Source: Alphaproteobacteria bacterium (GTDB taxonomy: Bacteria > Pseudomonadota > Alphaproteobacteria > UBA2966 > CAIVPW01). From it: a DNA stretch of 42,806 nucleotides. Below are positions 26,878 to 36,329 of the stretch, one piece after another; the first letter of the stretch is position 1; each line of letters starts with the position of its first letter. The stretch is taken from assembly GCA_018658465.1 (NCBI GenBank), contig JABHVE010000027.1, positions 1 to 42,806 of the forward strand. Reading direction: 5' to 3'. Made by a program: the position numbers and the translations under genes. The notes beneath the pieces were generated by a model, which was given only the letters and a program-made list of their open reading frames with translations, did not search any database and was not told the DNA's origin.

Positions 26878-29049
26878 TTATTGCAAACACTCCACCAAGA
26901 CGGTGTAGGCGCGGGCGCGGGCCGCCACGTCGGCGGTATCGATGGGTGTGATGGCGCCCGCAGTGCGATAATCGATGGCCAGGGAGTCCAAGAAAACTTG
27001 GGCGACTCAGCCCTGGATGGCGAAGTTCACGTTCTGAGGAATGTCGCCAATGGCCTCCGCCACAAGTATGGCGTCCAGCTTTGCCACGACCACACCAACC
27101 ACGTTTCCGGCTCCGTCCAACAGCGGCCCGCCACTGTTGCCGGGCTGAACTGGCGCGGTAATTTGCATGATCCGGCGGTCATCCCCTGGGCCCGCCAAGG
27201 CGCTGACCGCGCCGGTGGTGACAATGGCTTCGGTGCTGGTGACCAGTTCGGCACCAAACAACGGATAGCCGATGACCACCACGTCGTCGGCTGGGCGGAT
27301 GCCGCGGCCCGCTCGGAACGCCGCAGTGTCGGCGACCCGTAAATCAGGGGCCATCAGCAATGCCAAGTCGCTGTCTGGTTCCGCCGCCCGAACCTCGGCA
27401 TCCACCGTTTGTTGGGATCCAGTGCGCACCCGCACGGCAGAGCACCCGGCGATGACGTGATTGTTGGTAATAACGTGACCATCGTCGGTGATCACAAAGC
27501 CGGTGCCGGTGGCGACGATTTCCAAATTGGTTGAAACAAGTCCGCCCCGGGTTGGCCGTCTTGCCTCGGCAGCCCGTGCCACCAACAAGGCGACGCTTAG
27601 TTCATCGGAAACTTGGCCGGTGACCGGCAGGCCATAATCTTCCTCGAATTGGCGAATGGCCGCCTGGGTCTGGGCCCCGGCAATACCGTCTGCTGGTCCT
27701 GGGCTGTACCCCAAATCCGCCAAAGCGGCTTGGGTGCGGGAGACATCTTGGTTGGCGATGCCGGGATCGGCGACCGGAGGCACCAAATTCACGGTGGGAT
27801 CGGGGGGCGCCAAAGTTGGCTGAAATCCTCCTGCTTCAAATTGCAAAACCAGCTTTTTTGCTAAATCGATCTGCGCGGTGGACAAGGTGGCTTCAAGGTC
27901 TTCCAGGGCCTCGATGGCTGTTTCGTTTCCCCAATTTTGGGCCGCCAGGGCGAGCCACATATAGGCCTGGAGCGGGTCAGCCGATACCCCTTCCCCTTGC
28001 CGATAAATAAAGCCCAACGATACTTGGGCGAATTCGTGGCCTTGCATTCCGGCCTGGATCATCCACCACGCGCCCTGGGTCAAATCCTGGGCGACGCCGT
28101 CGCCGATGGAATAATCCACCGCCATATTGTATTGGGCTTCGGCATGGCCTTGTTCAGCCGCCTGACGGTACCAAAAAATCGCTTCGATCATGTCTGCCGA
28201 CACGCCATAGCCGTATTCGTAATCCACCGCCAATTCGTATTGTGCCTCGGCAATCCCTTGCTCGGCAGCCAATAAATAATACCGGGCACCTTCGGCGAAA
28301 TCTTGAGGCACCCCGCGGCCTTCGTCGAATATTTTCCCCATGGCCAACTGGGCGAGCCCGTTGCCTTGATCTGCCGACAGGCTGTACCAAAATGCCGCTT
28401 CCGAATCGCTTTGTTCGACGCCGATGCCCCGCGAATAATTAAACGCTAGTTCGAATTGGGCGCCATCGTGGCCTTGCTCAGCCGCATACAAATACCACTC
28501 GGCGGCGATCCCATAATCCTGTTCAACGCCGTAGCCGAAATCATAATTGATGCCCATTTCGTATTGGGCGCGGGGGTCGCCGGCATCAGCTGCAAGGCGC
28601 ATCCACTCTGCCGACACGAAATCGTCTGCGGGCACCCCGTCGCCGGATTGGAACATCAATGCCAAATAATATTGGGCATCGGGATCGCCTTGGGCTGCAG
28701 ACTGTTCGTACCAGTAGGCGGCCTCGGTGTAATCTTGTTCGACTCCCAAGCCGTCGAAATACAAACCCGCCAAAAAATATTGCGCCAGGGAATCTCCTTG
28801 GACTGCCGCAAGGGTATACAGCGCCGCCGCCAATTCAAAATCGGGCTCGCCGACTAAGCCGAAATCGTAAATGTAGGCCGCCATGGTTTGGGCTGCTGGA
28901 TCGCCCGCCTCCACGTGCTCGATCAATTCATCCAGCGCGGCGTCGTAGTTGCCAACCTCGAACTGCTTGATGGCAACGTCCATGTCGGCGGTGGCGGTGC
29001 CACCGATCAACACGCCCAAAAATATTCCAATGATTGCGATCCGTTTCAT
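26878..29049 (-). CDS. SEL1-repeat / peptidoglycan-binding / trypsin-like serine protease, interrupted by an in-frame TGA at 27007-27009
   Basis: Multiple SEL1 repeats, PG-binding (VSRTQAALADLGYSPGPADGIAGAQTQAAIRQFEEDYGLPVTG), protease ATGTGFVITDDGHVITNNHVIAGC...DLALLMA...QPGNSGGPLLDGAGNVVGVV. Frame continues past TGA: VAQVFLDSLAIDYRTAGAITPIDTADVAARARAYTVLVECLQ*. Confidence 0.85.
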
Positions 29050-29136
29050 GGGGCAATGGTACGCCAGGACGGGGCGAAATGCCGCCAATTTGTTGGTGCC
29101 GGGGCGGGTGGTGGATCGCGCAATCGCTGGTGTCGC

Positions 29137-29210
29137 GTTCATTTCATGAACATTTGTGCGTTCATGGCTTGAACACAGCTGCATTTCGGGCTAACGTTCA
29201 CGCCGCGAAC
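29137..29210. promoter_or_regulatory. Array of three 15-bp palindromic sites GTTC-N7-GAAC
   Basis: GTTCATTTCATGAAC (29137-29151), GTTCATGGCTTGAAC (29160-29174), GTTCACGCCGCGAAC (29196-29210) in the divergent intergenic region. Confidence 0.8.
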
Positions 29211-29268
29211 ACGAATAAATGGCCGACACCTTGGGATACAGGCATCGGCGGCTAGGAGATCCCGGTCC

Positions 29269-29961
29269 GTGGTAAGCCAAGACATCAGTCAGGATCAAAA
29301 AGCCGCCATTGGCTCTGGCCCGCTGGAATCAGACGAAGTTGATGGCGAAAGCGCCATTACTCTGGGTCTTTTGGACGCCGTGCACCAAAACAGCTCGGTT
29401 TCCCAGCGGTCCTTGGCGGCGGAGCTGGGAATCGCTCTGGGGCTCACCAACGCCTATTTGAAGCGCTGCGTGCGCAAAGGCCTGGTAAAGGTCCGGTCAG
29501 CCCCGGCTAATCGCTATGCCTATTATCTGACTCCCAAAGGCTTCGCCGAAAAAAGCCAACTCACCGCCCGCTATTTGTCCGGCTCGTTCAGTTTTTATCG
29601 GCGGGCACGGGATCAATGCGACGCCTTGCTGGCCACCAGTGCCGATGAAGGTTTCCGGCGCATCGCCCTGTATGGCGTTGGTGACTTGGCGGAAGTAGCC
29701 GTGTTGTGCGCCATGCGCCACCACCTGGAAGTCGTGGGTATTGCCGACGATCGGGCAAACATCAATAGCTTCTTGAACCTGGTGGTGGTGCGCGAACTGA
29801 AAGACTTGCCGACTATTGATGGGGCACTTTTGACCGATTCTGCGCGGCCTCAACACAGCTTTGAAAGTTTGGCCAAACAGATCGATCCGGCGCGCATTCT
29901 GGTTCCGGAATTGTTGCACGTGACCCGGGATTCCGATGGGCCGGGAAGGGCGGGATCGTGA
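29269..29961 (+). CDS. Winged-helix (MarR-type, EPS-associated) regulator with C-terminal Rossmann-like segment
   Basis: LDAVHQNSSVSQRSLAAELGIALGLTNAYLKRCVRKGLVKVRSAPANRYAYYLTPKGFAEKSQL; then RRIALYGVGDLAEVAVLCAMRHHLEVVGIADDRAN; GTG start with AGGAG SD. Confidence 0.82.
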   Translation: MVSQDISQDQKAAIGSGPLESDEVDGESAITLGLLDAVHQNSSVSQRSLAAELGIALGLTNAYLKRCVRKGLVKVRSAPANRYAYYLTPKGFAEKSQLTARYLSGSFSFYRRARDQCDALLATSADEGFRRIALYGVGDLAEVAVLCAMRHHLEVVGIADDRANINSFLNLVVVRELKDLPTIDGALLTDSARPQHSFESLAKQIDPARILVPELLHVTRDSDGPGRAGS

Positions 29962-30473
29962 ACCGCTGGTATTGCGCATACACCAAACCCGGTGCCGAGC
30001 TTTGGGCGCGGACGAATTTGTGGGAACGCGGGTTCGACGTGTACTTGCCTCTGTACCAAAAACGCCGCCGCCACGCCCGGCGCACGGACTATGTGGCGGC
30101 ACCCCTGTTCCCGCGCTATTTGTTCGTATCCGCTGATTTGGAAACCGGGGTATCCCGGGGCATTACCTTTGCGCCGGGGGTTTCCAGCCTGATCGCCTTT
30201 GGTGGCGATCCGGCGCCGGTCCCGGATCCAATCATCGCCGAAATTCGCGCCAACGAAGGCGAGGACGGAATGGTGGATATCGATCACGGACATGGCATTG
30301 CCTCGCGCTATCAGCCCGGCGACAAAGTGCGTATCGCCGAAGGCCCCATGGCCGACTCGGTGGGCATTTTTCACGCCCGCAGCGCCGACCAACGGGTATT
30401 CATTTTGCTAGATCTTTTGGGCCGTCAGGTTCAGGTCAAAGTCCACGCCAAGGCTTTGAGCCCCGAGGAATAA
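29958..30473 (+). CDS. NusG/RfaH-like transcription (anti)termination factor
   Basis: RWYCAYTKPGAELWARTNLWERGFDVYLPLYQKRRRHARR...APLFPRYLFVSADLE, C-terminal KOW-like QPGDKVRIAEGPMADSVGIFHARSADQRVFILLDLLGRQVQVKV. Confidence 0.9.
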   Translation: MNRWYCAYTKPGAELWARTNLWERGFDVYLPLYQKRRRHARRTDYVAAPLFPRYLFVSADLETGVSRGITFAPGVSSLIAFGGDPAPVPDPIIAEIRANEGEDGMVDIDHGHGIASRYQPGDKVRIAEGPMADSVGIFHARSADQRVFILLDLLGRQVQVKVHAKALSPEE

Positions 30474-30511: not shown

Positions 30512-32251
30512 ATGAATTCTTGGCGTCAACGTTTTGACCTTATCGCCCGATTAATCGGCGAGCGCCGCAGGTTGGCCGCCGTGATGTTCACGGTCACATT
30601 GCTGGCCGCATTGGCCGAAAGTTTCGGCCTGTTCCTGGTCTTGCCAATTTTGTCGGGGGTGTTGGGCCTGGCAAGTGAACCCGGGATGCTGACGAATATT
30701 TCCGGTCGCATCGAACAGTTGTTCCCCGGAGCCTTTCGCCTTGAAATGCTCCTGGCCTTGCTGGCGCTGGCGTTTTTGGCCAAGGGGGCATTGGCGGTCA
30801 CCGCCCGGGGCATGACCGACTATTTTGCCCTGCGCCTGCGTGATGACTGGGCATCGGCGATGTTCGATCATTATTTATCCGCCCGCCGCGCCGGGCTCGC
30901 TGGGCAAAAACTGGGGGCAATGGTTCACAATGTCGCCCAGGAATCCTATCGGGCGTCTCGCGGCGTCGCCCTGTTGTTCGACTTTCTGAACCGTTCCATC
31001 CTGGTCTTGGTGCTGACGGGGTTGCTGTTGCTCATCAGCTGGCAGGCAACAATTTTTGTCGCCCTGACCGGGGTGCTGGTGTTTTACGGCATCCGCAAAA
31101 GCACGTTTCGATACTCCGTAAAATTCGGCAAGCTGCGGCAAAAAATGTTCCAGAAGATCACAGCGATTTCTGCGGAATCCTTGGCGGCAATCAATGAAAT
31201 AAAGCTGTTTGGTGCCAACGCCCGCAAACGTGGCGAATTGGGGGAGCGTCTGGAGCGCCACACCCGGGCGGAAACGAAATTTCGGGTGGCCAAGGAAATC
31301 CCTGTCCAGGCCACAGAATTAATGCTGATCCTGCTGTTTGGCGCCGGCCTGGTGATTATGACAAGAGTGTTGGGGCTGGAGCCCGCGGCATCTGCCGGGC
31401 AGTTGGGGCTGTTCTTGTTGGTGGGCCAACGCATGCTCACCAACGTCAACAACATCATTTCCCAGCGCATGAAAATCGCCGCGATGCTACCGGCTGTGGC
31501 CTTGGTGAGCGATCTGGCCCACGCCGAGCCGGATCGCGAAGATACCCAAACCGGCACGCCCTATAAGCCCCTTGAAACCGACATCGAATTCCGCGATGTG
31601 GGGTTTGCCTATGATCCCGGCACGCAAATTTTGTCGGGCATCAACATGGTAATCCCCAAGGGCAAAACCACGGCGATTGTTGGCGCGTCGGGTGTGGGCA
31701 AATCGACCTTTGCCGACATGTTGTTGGGGTTCGTGTCGCCGACCCAGGGCGCCATCGTAACGGGGGACCAGGATTGGTCTGAATTCTCGTTGTCGTCCTT
31801 GCGCCAGGGAATTGGTTATGTGACCCAGTCGCCCATGATCTTCAACACCACAGTGCGGGACAACATCCGGTTTGGCGCCCCGGCTGCCACCGACAGCGAA
31901 ATCATCGAAGCCGCCAAAATCGCCCACGCCCATGAATTCATCACCGCCTTGGCCGATGGATATGACACCCAGATTGGCGATCGCGGCGAAAATTTATCGG
32001 GTGGCCAGCGCCAACGTCTTGCCGTCGCCCGGGTCATTTTGTGCCGCCCCAGCGTCTATGTGTTCGACGAAGCGACGAACGCCTTGGACCCGGAATCGGA
32101 ATCCCTTGTGCGCGCGGCCATCCGCGAGTTATCGGGGGATGCCACGGTCATTTTGATCGCCCATGGGGAATCGGTGCTGGGCCAGGCGGACGTCATTTAC
32201 CGATTGGAAAGCGACGGCGCCCATTCGGTCAGCAACAACGAGGCCGCCTGA
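30512..32251 (+). CDS. ABC exporter/flippase, fused permease-ATPase
   Basis: N-terminal TM domain; IVGASGVGKSTFADMLLGFVSPTQG, GENLSGGQRQRLAVARVILCRPSVYVFDEATNALDPESE. Confidence 0.92.
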   Translation: MNSWRQRFDLIARLIGERRRLAAVMFTVTLLAALAESFGLFLVLPILSGVLGLASEPGMLTNISGRIEQLFPGAFRLEMLLALLALAFLAKGALAVTARGMTDYFALRLRDDWASAMFDHYLSARRAGLAGQKLGAMVHNVAQESYRASRGVALLFDFLNRSILVLVLTGLLLLISWQATIFVALTGVLVFYGIRKSTFRYSVKFGKLRQKMFQKITAISAESLAAINEIKLFGANARKRGELGERLERHTRAETKFRVAKEIPVQATELMLILLFGAGLVIMTRVLGLEPAASAGQLGLFLLVGQRMLTNVNNIISQRMKIAAMLPAVALVSDLAHAEPDREDTQTGTPYKPLETDIEFRDVGFAYDPGTQILSGINMVIPKGKTTAIVGASGVGKSTFADMLLGFVSPTQGAIVTGDQDWSEFSLSSLRQGIGYVTQSPMIFNTTVRDNIRFGAPAATDSEIIEAAKIAHAHEFITALADGYDTQIGDRGENLSGGQRQRLAVARVILCRPSVYVFDEATNALDPESESLVRAAIRELSGDATVILIAHGESVLGQADVIYRLESDGAHSVSNNEAA

Positions 32252-32252
32252 A

Positions 32253-33335
32253 ATGCCTGACGCAATTCTTATCGGGGGACACGCGGTGGGGCCGGGTAAT
32301 CCGGCTTTTCTGATCGCCGAAGTCGCCCAATCCCACGATGGATCATTGGGGTTGGCCCACGCATTTGTCGACAGCGCGGCCAAGGCTGGTGCCGACGCTG
32401 TGAAATTCCAAACCCACATCGCCGCGGCTGAATCAACGTTGGATGAACCCTTTCGCACGGCCTTTAGCACCCAGGACGACACCCGGTACGATTACTGGAA
32501 GCGCATGGAATTCACGGCGGAACAATGGGCGGGGCTTGCGGCCCATGCCGCGCACAAAGATCTGGTGTTTTTGTCGTCGGCGTTTTCCATCGAGGCCATG
32601 GAGATATTGAAATCTTTGGGCATGCTGGCGTGGAAAATTGGCTCAGGCGAGCTTGCCTCACACCAAATGCTGACGGCCATCGCCCAGACGGCAGCGGCGT
32701 CAAACGCCCCCGTGTTGCTCAGCACCGGCATGACCACATTTGATGATATCGATGCCGCAGCGGCTTTGGTCCTGGCAGAAGGCGCTGCCATGGGGGGGTT
32801 TCAGTGCACCAGCCGGTACCCGGCGGCGTTGGAAGACGTGGGCCTGAACGTCATCGACCAATTACGTTCGCGGCTGAATTGTCCGGTGGGTCTGTCCGAT
32901 CACACCGGTACTGTGCACCCCAGCTTGGCGGCGATCGCCCGCGGTGCGGACATGATCGAAGTCCACATCGCTTTGGACAAAGCCATGTTTGGCCCCGATG
33001 TACCGGTGTCATTGACCCCCGACGACATCGCCTTGCTGCGTGCCGCCCGGGATGCGGTGGCGGTGATGGATGCCAACCCGGTGGACAATGATGCCATGGC
33101 TGCCGAATTGGCGCCCATGCGATCCCTGTTCAACAAAAGCGTGGCAACAGTGCGCGACTTGCCGTCCGGCACAATCTTGGCCCCAGACATGCTAACCGAA
33201 AAGAAACCGGGAACCGGAATCCCGGCCGCCGACCTGCCGATCTTGATTGGCCGGGTGTTGGCCCGCGACGTGTCTTCGCAGCACTTGCTCGCGGGCGAAG
33301 ATCTGGAACCCTCTATCGAGCCTGAATTGGGATGA
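32253..33335 (+). CDS. neuB: NeuB-family nonulosonate (sialic acid-type) synthase with SAF domain
   Basis: FLIAEVAQSHDGSLGLAHAFVDSAAKAGADAVKFQTHIAAAEST...WKIGSGELASHQML...VLLSTGMTTFDDI...C-terminal SAF RDLPSGTILAPDMLTEKKPGTGIPA. Confidence 0.92.
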   Translation: MPDAILIGGHAVGPGNPAFLIAEVAQSHDGSLGLAHAFVDSAAKAGADAVKFQTHIAAAESTLDEPFRTAFSTQDDTRYDYWKRMEFTAEQWAGLAAHAAHKDLVFLSSAFSIEAMEILKSLGMLAWKIGSGELASHQMLTAIAQTAAASNAPVLLSTGMTTFDDIDAAAALVLAEGAAMGGFQCTSRYPAALEDVGLNVIDQLRSRLNCPVGLSDHTGTVHPSLAAIARGADMIEVHIALDKAMFGPDVPVSLTPDDIALLRAARDAVAVMDANPVDNDAMAAELAPMRSLFNKSVATVRDLPSGTILAPDMLTEKKPGTGIPAADLPILIGRVLARDVSSQHLLAGEDLEPSIEPELG

Positions 33336-34489
33336 AAAATTCGATCCGTAAAATTTGTATCGTGGTCAACAGCCGGGCCAATTACGGGCGCATCAAATCG
33401 GTGATGCGGGCGGTGAACGACCATCCCAAATTGGAACTTCAATTGATTGTCGGGGCGTCGGCGTTGCTGTACCGGTTCGGCAATGTTGCGGACCTTATTC
33501 GCGCAGATGGGTTCGAGCCTTCTGCCACCGTGTACACCATCGTCGAAGGTGAAACGCCAACGACCATGGCCAAGTCCACCGGCATGGCGATCATGGAGCT
33601 GGCCACTCAGTTCGAAAACATGAAACCCGATATCGCCCTGACTGTGGCCGACCGGTTTGAAACCATGGCGACGGCGGTTGCCGCCAGCTATATGAACATT
33701 CCCCTGGCCCACACCCAGGGTGGCGAGGTCACAGGCAATATTGATGAAAGCGTTCGCCACGCGGTCACCAAGCTTTCCCACCTGCATTTTCCGGCCACCG
33801 CACAGGCCGCCGATTACTTGGTGCGTATGGGGGAAGAACCATCGACCGTGCATTACACCGGCTGCCCCGCCATTGATTTGGTGGCCGGTCTGGACCTGAC
33901 GTTGCCCCCAGATATTTTCACCCGGTACAAAGGTGTCGGTGCCGACCTAGACCCCGCCAAGCCATATTTGGTGGTGCTGCAACACCCCGTGACATCGGAA
34001 TACGGCAGCGGGTTCGACCAGATCAACGCGACCCTACAGGCGGTGGAAAGCATTGGCATGCAAACCGCCTGGTTGTGGCCCAATGTGGATGCCGGGTCCG
34101 ACGATATCTCCAAGGGATTGCGCATGTACCGGGAAGAAAAATCCCCGGATTGGCTGCACATGTATCGCAACTTTGGCGCCGAAGATTATGCGCGGCTGAT
34201 CAATGGTGCCCAATGCTTGGTGGGCAATTCGTCATCGGCATTGCGCGAAGGTGCCTATCTTGGGGTGCCTGCTGTGAACATCGGCAATCGTCAACAAGGC
34301 CGCGAACATGGTGCAAATGTTGTGCACATCGCCAACGATGCCGATGCGATCGTTGCCGCCATCACTGCCCAAATCGCCAAGGGTCGTCACCCAGGTTCCG
34401 AACTGTTCGGTGACGGAACCGCAGGCGGAAAAATTGCGGACATTTTGGCCAACGCCGAAATCACCATTCAAAAACGCTTGGCCTATTAA
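33332..34489 (+). CDS. neuC: Hydrolysing UDP-GlcNAc 2-epimerase (NeuC/LegG-like)
   Basis: KICIVVNSRANYGRIKSVMRAV...LTVADRFETMATAVAASYMNIPLAHTQGGEVTGNIDESVRHAVTKLSHLHFPAT...LVGNSSSALREGAYLGVPAVNIGNRQQGREHG. Confidence 0.92.
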   Translation: MKNSIRKICIVVNSRANYGRIKSVMRAVNDHPKLELQLIVGASALLYRFGNVADLIRADGFEPSATVYTIVEGETPTTMAKSTGMAIMELATQFENMKPDIALTVADRFETMATAVAASYMNIPLAHTQGGEVTGNIDESVRHAVTKLSHLHFPATAQAADYLVRMGEEPSTVHYTGCPAIDLVAGLDLTLPPDIFTRYKGVGADLDPAKPYLVVLQHPVTSEYGSGFDQINATLQAVESIGMQTAWLWPNVDAGSDDISKGLRMYREEKSPDWLHMYRNFGAEDYARLINGAQCLVGNSSSALREGAYLGVPAVNIGNRQQGREHGANVVHIANDADAIVAAITAQIAKGRHPGSELFGDGTAGGKIADILANAEITIQKRLAY

Positions 34490-35391
34490 TGGACGGGTTC
34501 GGCCCATGCGAGATTTGTGGCGGGGACAATTGGAGACCCGTGTACCAGGGCCCCGTGCGCGACGGCAAGTTCGGCAATCTGACAGCCCCCACAACAGTCG
34601 CCGAATGCGATGATTGCGGTGTCGTGCGCTTGGCCGAGGCATCGTGCCACGACGATGATTTTTACGCGGGGCCCGAATATTGGGCATCTGTAACTGGCGG
34701 TGACGGGTTCTCTAATTCCCACGAAATGATGGATGACGTTGGGCTTCATGGGCTTTGGGCCGATGATATCGGCGGAAAAACCGTGGCCGAAATCGGCACT
34801 GGTGGTGGCGGCTTTTTGGATCAGATCAAGGAATTGGAGGTCGCTCCCAAAACCGTCATTGCCATCGAGCCCGCCGACGCTCTGCGCCCCGATCTAGAAG
34901 CCAAGGGGTTCGAGACCTTCGCCTATACATCGGATGCCGCCGAGTCGTTTGCCGGGGCGGTTGATCTGGCCTGCACGTTTAATGTGATCGAACATGTGCC
35001 GGATCCTTCCAAGTTTCTGGCCGATGCCGCCGCATTGCTTGCACCGGACGGGCGGTTGCTTCTCAGCACCCCCAATCGTGACGATACCCTGATGGATTTG
35101 GCCCCTGATTATCCCCAATTTTTCTATCGCGTCGCCCACCGTTGGTATTTCGATGCGGACGCCTTGGCGGCTTGTGCCGCCCAGGCGGGCTTGAAAATTT
35201 CCCGTGTTCATTACGTGCAGCGTTATGGGTTGGCCAACGCCTTGGTATGGATCCGCGATGGCAAACCGTCGGCGCACGACTCGTTGCCGGGGCTGCGCGA
35301 CGCTCGTCTGGATCAAACCTGGCAAGATAATTTGGTGCGCCGAGGCGTGGCCGATCGCCTGTATGCGGTTTTGGAAAGGGTGCCCCAATGA
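34489..35391 (+). CDS. Class I SAM-dependent methyltransferase with N-terminal Cys-pair zinc motif
   Basis: CEICGGDNW...CDDCGVV; VAEIGTGGGGFLDQIKELE...CTFNVIEHVPDPSKFLADAAALLAPDGRLLLSTPN. Confidence 0.87.
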   Translation: MDGFGPCEICGGDNWRPVYQGPVRDGKFGNLTAPTTVAECDDCGVVRLAEASCHDDDFYAGPEYWASVTGGDGFSNSHEMMDDVGLHGLWADDIGGKTVAEIGTGGGGFLDQIKELEVAPKTVIAIEPADALRPDLEAKGFETFAYTSDAAESFAGAVDLACTFNVIEHVPDPSKFLADAAALLAPDGRLLLSTPNRDDTLMDLAPDYPQFFYRVAHRWYFDADALAACAAQAGLKISRVHYVQRYGLANALVWIRDGKPSAHDSLPGLRDARLDQTWQDNLVRRGVADRLYAVLERVPQ

Positions 35392-36329
35392 CCTTGAAAA
35401 TTGCCTATCTGGGGGCCCAATCCGGATACGAATCCCTGGTGGAAACCCTGGGTGGAGCGGCCGACGCGGTCCATGTGGAGGCCAACCCGGACGCCCTATC
35501 ACAAGCCCTGGAAACGGCTGACGGCTTGCTTGATGCCTCCATGGCGGTGCCCATCAGCGATGCCATGATCGACGCCGCGCCGAATTTAAAAATCATCAGT
35601 TGCGCCACAACTGGGTCCGATCACATTGCCCGTGAATCAGCCAATGCACGCGGCATTGCCATCCACACCCTGCGCGAAGACGCCGACCTGTTGGCCAATC
35701 TGACCCCGGCGGCGGAACTTTCTTGGGCCCTGTTGATGGCCGTCGCTCGCAATCTGCCAGCAGCCGTGGCCCACACCCGGGCCGGCAATTGGCAGCGCGA
35801 AGATTTTCCCGGGACAATGATCAACGGTCGGACGCTGGGGCTTGTTGGTGTTGGCCGCATCGGCGGTTGGATGGCCCGGTATGCCCAGGCATTTGGCATG
35901 TCGGTGGTTGGGTACGACCCCTACCAAGACACTCTGCCCGATGGGGTCGAACGGGTCACCCTGGCGGAAATGTTCGGCCAATGCGATTTCGTCTCGGTCC
36001 ACGTGCATCTGTCCGATGAAACCCGTGGGCTTATCAGCCGTGAATTATTAGAAGCCGCGAAGATCGGGCTGGTCCTGATCAACACCTCGCGCGGGGCCAT
36101 CGTTGACGAGGCGGCGCTGGTCCATGGGCTGGCGTCTGGGCGCATCAGTGGCGCGGGCCTTGATGTGCTGGATGGCGAGCCGGACACTGCAAACCATCCC
36201 CTGGTGCTTTATTCCCAAACCCACGACAACCTTTTGATTACCCCCCATTGCGGCGGCTTCAGCCCTGACGCCGTGCGCTTGGTGTGCGCCCGCGCTGGGC
36301 AAAAAATCATGGAGAAATTGGGCCTGTGA
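35388..36329 (+). CDS. D-2-hydroxyacid dehydrogenase (SerA-like)
   Basis: GRTLGLVGVGRIGGWMARYAQAFGMSVVGYDPY...VSVHVHLSDETRGLISRELLEAAKIGLVLINTSRGAIVDEAALVHGLASGRISGAGLDVLDGEP...LLITPHCGG. Confidence 0.92.
   Translation: MTLKIAYLGAQSGYESLVETLGGAADAVHVEANPDALSQALETADGLLDASMAVPISDAMIDAAPNLKIISCATTGSDHIARESANARGIAIHTLREDADLLANLTPAAELSWALLMAVARNLPAAVAHTRAGNWQREDFPGTMINGRTLGLVGVGRIGGWMARYAQAFGMSVVGYDPYQDTLPDGVERVTLAEMFGQCDFVSVHVHLSDETRGLISRELLEAAKIGLVLINTSRGAIVDEAALVHGLASGRISGAGLDVLDGEPDTANHPLVLYSQTHDNLLITPHCGGFSPDAVRLVCARAGQKIMEKLGL

Follow-up and report, generated by a model that had tools for sequence, protein, structure and literature searches.

The stretch of DNA analysed here (the window, 42,806 nucleotides) carries three GTTC-N7-GAAC palindromes between a divergent protease gene and the head of a surface-glycan operon. 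All three, at 29137, 29160 and 29196, were present exactly as first read. The features of the region are listed below.

29137 to 29151, no strand assigned: operator site 1, GTTCATTTCATGAAC, exact match, 23 bp upstream of site 2 (start to start)
29160 to 29174, no strand assigned: operator site 2, GTTCATGGCTTGAAC, exact match, with the predicted -35 of the promoter scan inside its right half
29169 to 29174, + strand: predicted -35, TTGAAC, from the top-ranked hexamer pair of 29050-29268 on both strands
29192 to 29197, + strand: predicted -10, TAACGT, 17 bp past the -35, its last two bases shared with site 3
29196 to 29210, no strand assigned: operator site 3, GTTCACGCCGCGAAC, exact match, counterpart of the second operator (O2) of relatives of the same family, to which it is identical in sequence
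29254 to 29259, + strand: likely ribosome-binding site, AGGAGA, 9 bases 5' of the GTG, read from the sequence
29269 to 29961, + strand: regulator of 230 aa, winged helix-turn-helix (wHTH) followed by a Rossmann-like domain at the C-terminus, presumed to read the sites
29958 to 30473, + strand: RfaH/UpxY-like NusG paralogue (family matches), next gene of the operon and, in 79 of 80 relatives, likewise directly 3' of the regulator
30512 to 36329, + strand: rest of the glycan operon as examined, with ABC exporter, NeuB-like synthase, NeuC epimerase, methyltransferase and 2-hydroxyacid dehydrogenase

The first-pass annotation had regarded even a single match to GTTC-N7-GAAC as rare, which did not hold: the 42.8-kb window contained 4 matches where 0.86 were expected, which means that a lone motif is nothing unusual. 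Over the 2.05 Mb of the whole genome we counted 22 copies, and 34 of the reversed control. The fourth match of the window, at 34405, lay within the NeuC ORF. The genome scan that had been proposed together with that claim did reveal a promoter bias, with clustered sites before the regulator and the remaining 19 copies scattered, nearly all of them within long ORFs. The trio at 29137-29210 was the sole clustered group of such sites in this 95%-complete genome, and about 3e-6 triples in such a span are expected genome-wide by chance (2.8e-6, from the background rate), showing that the cluster is real. The clustering, and not the single motif, is the exceptional feature.

The winged helix of the regulator matched best the MarR_EPS family (TIGR04176), but its score of 66.6 bits (68.4 in the genome search) did not reach the curated cut-off of 88 bits. 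Among Pfam families, HTH_24 was above threshold (36.5 bits) and MarR_2 under it (23.5 bits, threshold 27), and the solved MarR chain 3bj6 was a weak sequence match (E 0.05). In the AlphaFold model the wHTH has a long helix and is followed by a confident Rossmann-like domain, which no Pfam family covered at threshold. The C-terminal half was modelled alone, because the uncertain orientation of the domains made the whole-chain fold search uninformative; its best fold matches were an uncharacterised clostridial protein and Gfo/Idh/MocA-type or diaminopimelate dehydrogenases, with WbaP, UDP-sugar dehydrogenases and Rex ranked lower. The gene that follows scored best with RfaH (119 bits, cut-off 144.5), then with UpxY (77 bits), and its NusG domain was above threshold; a specialised NusG paralogue was thus found encoded within the operon, which overall reads as one of the nonulosonic-acid glycan type.

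Conservation was analysed in 80 orthologous loci of Alphaproteobacteria obtained by a genome-contig search (47-61% identity over the alignment). These loci share ancestry, and they partly overlap a first set of relatives, in which the motif stood upstream of nearly every orthologue, so that the two sets are not mutually independent. The first-pass annotation had made its reading depend on conservation upstream of orthologous operons, and the 350 bp that precede the regulator did contain a site in all 80 loci and at least two sites in 77 of them. The sites were spaced by 23 bp in 51 pairs, 22 bp in 16 and 24 bp in 10, the commonest spacing being that of sites 1 and 2 of the window. Neither the reversed motif nor the LexA-type direct repeat GTTC-N7-GTTC occurred in any of the 80 upstream regions. 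Some distant homologues (L036, L038 and L169) were without an N7 site. The consensus of 167 distinct sites showed that positions that had not been selected for lengthen the palindrome to 17 bp, YGTTCAY-N3-RTGAACR, while the sequence at the centre and in the outer flanks is free to vary among relatives, indicating that the conserved sites are not mere undiverged DNA. In the DNA-binding part of the 80 regulator proteins, Q46 and R47, A56, G58, N61, R82 and Y85 were invariant.

Potential promoters in the intergenic region 29050-29268 were ranked with a simple sigma-70 matrix. The best was TTGAAC-N17-TAACGT, running through sites 2 and 3, from which a transcription start is predicted near 29204, within site 3; it scored well above CTAACG-N17-AATAAA at site 3, which had been our first guess and was discarded. 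A consensus tool that demands 4/6 bases per hexamer found no promoter in the window, because this threshold shuts out the -10 elements of this regulator family. Between site 3 and the start of the regulator, a terminator-like stem-loop of 10 pairs, 6 of them G-C, was noticed on the minus strand (29222-29249). In the relatives, the same matrix ranked the conserved TTGACG at the first operator (O1) first in 72 of 77 cases; the -35 element TTGAC was flush against a site in 76 of the 80 orthologous loci and was followed, exactly 18 bp after the hexamer, by TAnnnT in 64 of 73 distinct promoters. In most of them, O1 starts on the final base of the -35 and occupies the spacer, and O2, at the commonest spacing, shares its first two bases with the end of the -10. 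The window, whose genome alone represented its genus in the search, is without the canonical O1 position, which is lost there: GTCGC, not a -35, precedes site 1, which lies upstream, and site 2 bears the -35 in its right half. Site 3 overlaps the -10 just as O2 does in relatives of the same family.

TIGR04176 proteins across the phylum were mostly short and consisted of the wHTH only. A single GTTCA-N5-TGAAC stood within 150 bp upstream in 11 of 13 of these short members, near the start codon; as they have no Rossmann domain, reading of the DNA should not need it. A third architecture was found in one alphaproteobacterial family (f24; L172-L177 and L179), in which a MarR_EPS-type wHTH is in frame with a Sat/CysC-like protein, a part that reads as a bifunctional sulfate adenylyltransferase/APS kinase and was identified by eye, not by family search. 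Upstream of these fusions we found the 14-bp palindrome GTTCA-N4-TGAAC (half-sites with N6) in 7/7 cases and GTTCA-N5-TGAAC in 0/7. Some of these loci have two palindromes about 48 bp apart. The spacer is therefore N7 in the orthologues and in the short MarR_EPS members and N6 in the wHTH-Sat fusions, and, of the evidence from sequence alone, it is this match between spacer length and protein subfamily that speaks most strongly for the sites being read by these proteins themselves.

Taken together, these data make it very likely that the first gene of the surface-glycan operon encodes a winged-helix repressor that controls its own expression and has the palindromes as its operators, and what is readable as the same code stands before related regulators across Pseudomonadota. 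A repressor dimer would bind YGTTCAY-N3-RTGAACR, with tandem operators of 15-17 bp placed over the -35/spacer and over the -10/start. Since O1 covers the -35/spacer and O2 the -10, dimers on both would exclude RNA polymerase. In the version of the window, site 3 would act as O2, site 2 would lie over the -35 and site 1 would be an upstream helper site. Derepression would then lead to transcription of the regulator itself, of the RfaH-like antiterminator and of the glycan genes, and the antiterminator, by its relation to the RfaH and UpxY families, may carry the polymerase along the long operon. The releasing signal would bind the Rossmann-like C-terminal domain and may be a dinucleotide or a nucleotide-sugar, although the ligand is a guess.

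The preference for repression over activation is deduced from the geometry, and the regulator could instead bind these sites as an activator, between the -35 and the -10 as MerR does, or in a dual role. O1 sits in an 18-bp spacer, slightly above the optimum, as in MerR-type promoters, and WggR of S. meliloti, which is MarR-like, has both modes of action on the EPS-II genes (PMC10458429). However, in most relatives O2 lies over the -10 and start region, repression is the usual role of MarR-type proteins, and the one site of the short family members is near the start codon, so that we consider activation or a dual role improbable.

A blind search for the paired motif and a search with the regulator profile were carried out in the same 385 genomes of the class. 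The paired motif was present in 40 genomes (reversed control, 0) and the regulator profile matched 81; the pair was found in 39 of the 81 genomes bearing the regulator against 1 of the 304 without it (Fisher p 1.6e-29, phylogeny not corrected), and the other regulator-bearing genomes had single sites or other spacings. Thirty-nine of the 50 paired places were directly upstream of the regulator. Most of the other 11 adjoin glycan genes (a DegT-type aminotransferase with an epimerase or a sulfatase-like gene, a PseB-type dehydratase, an RmlD-type reductase, or an ABC exporter with a sulfotransferase), and those beside glycan genes are probable extra members of the regulon. At L043, L064 and L218 the pairs lie between or before DegT-type aminotransferase genes and a sulfatase-like or epimerase gene, with the regulator in the same genomes; here the probable extra regulon members would belong to a pathway of the nonulosonic-acid type. 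L221 is a contig end whose operator repeats the regulator-promoter sequence of the same genome. No recognisable glycan gene was seen among the neighbours of the L220 pair, and the pair at L059 (GTTCC type) was taken as chance, its genome (G036) having no orthologue.

These results also bear on whether some other protein, either a second palindrome-binding regulator or a LexA-like one, reads the sites instead of the neighbouring regulator. The alphaproteobacterial LexA box is the direct repeat GTTC-N7-GTTC and thus has the same half-site; the repeats at our sites are inverted rather than direct, which rules out the LexA box as their identity, and, as stated above, it was absent from the 80 upstream regions. 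Moreover, the paired sites follow the regulator gene over the 385 genomes and the length of the spacer tracks the protein subfamily, leaving another reader very improbable. That a common 8-base motif merely happened to cluster here, although in line with a single motif no commoner genome-wide than its reversed control, is refuted by the conservation in 80/80 loci and by the minute number of triples expected, and can be practically dismissed. The proposal of the first-pass annotation, a multi-site operator read by the 29269-29961 protein and giving autoregulation, was hence supported by conservation, by co-occurrence with the regulator across genomes and by the subfamily-dependent spacer, from which binding is inferred.

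Co-regulation of the divergent protease, also suggested there, found no such backing. The single product of this gene (27007-29049, minus strand) combines Sel1 repeats, a peptidoglycan-binding domain and a trypsin-like protease. The position of the gene next to the regulator is not conserved: any match to it was found in 3 of the 80 loci, and, among the loci listed, it was the divergent neighbour only in L070, of the same family. The scan of the minus strand of 29050-29268 gave no strong promoter over the sites, and we rejected the gene as a conserved target of the operators. L112 and L034 have an extra GTTC-N7-GAAC 260-310 bp upstream of the regulator, away from the promoter and possibly for the divergent gene.

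In kind the predicted system is ordinary and would behave like a classical MarR-type autorepressor. Rex, which recognises TTGTGA-N6-TCACAA, has an analogous architecture of winged helix and Rossmann-like domain, and Rex chains were among the weak Foldseek matches of both models. However, the window protein has a shorter Rossmann domain, a different operator and a glycan regulon, and no Rex family was among its Pfam/NCBIfam matches, the likeness being limited to weak fold matches. RfaH/UpxY/LoaP polysaccharide operons likewise encode an operon-specific NusG paralogue at their head, whereas here a DNA-binding autoregulator with its own operators precedes the paralogue in 79/80 loci. MarR_EPS (TIGR04176) is the best wHTH match, has an exopolysaccharide context by name and shares the upstream GTTCA-N5-TGAAC; the members found here are short, consist of the wHTH only and have a single site, while the window protein has the Rossmann-like domain in addition and two to three sites. 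The palindromes bound by MarR homodimers are of 16-20 bp (PMC10458429). According to the title of Yin et al. 2022 (doi 10.1007/s00253-022-11971-6), cited in the same paper, EpsR(Ac) of Acidithiobacillus caldus is a copper-sensing MarR-family repressor; it resembles our system in being a reported repressor and differs in that the copper sensing named in that title has no known counterpart in the window system. In PMC10599003, one A. caldus gene bears the MarR_EPS family name, and EpsR(Ac) is possibly a member. The first-pass annotation knew of no described operator of this kind, and our literature search by motif and family names likewise found none in the papers covered. The code, the range over which it occurs and the swaps of domain thus appear to be undescribed, with caution as to priority given EpsR(Ac).

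We tentatively propose, at slightly short of an even chance, that GTTCA-N5-TGAAC is the ancestral operator code of phylum-wide repressors of glycan operons, whose DNA-binding domain kept the code while the input part was swapped (none, Rossmann-like, or ATP sulfurylase-APS kinase) and one subfamily became 1 bp shorter; the Rossmann-type members would sense a nucleotide-sugar of the pathway or a redox cofactor. Any genome can be read for this code, which belongs to a family of surface-polysaccharide regulators that is widespread but has hardly been studied, and the predicted targets are autoregulated operons with an RfaH-like antiterminator together with separate nonulosonic-acid or exporter genes. 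The sites supply ready EMSA and reporter constructs. Finally, the recurrence of these half-sites before the wHTH-ATP sulfurylase fusions suggests a regulatory tie of sulfate activation to this regulator family, which is open to direct testing.
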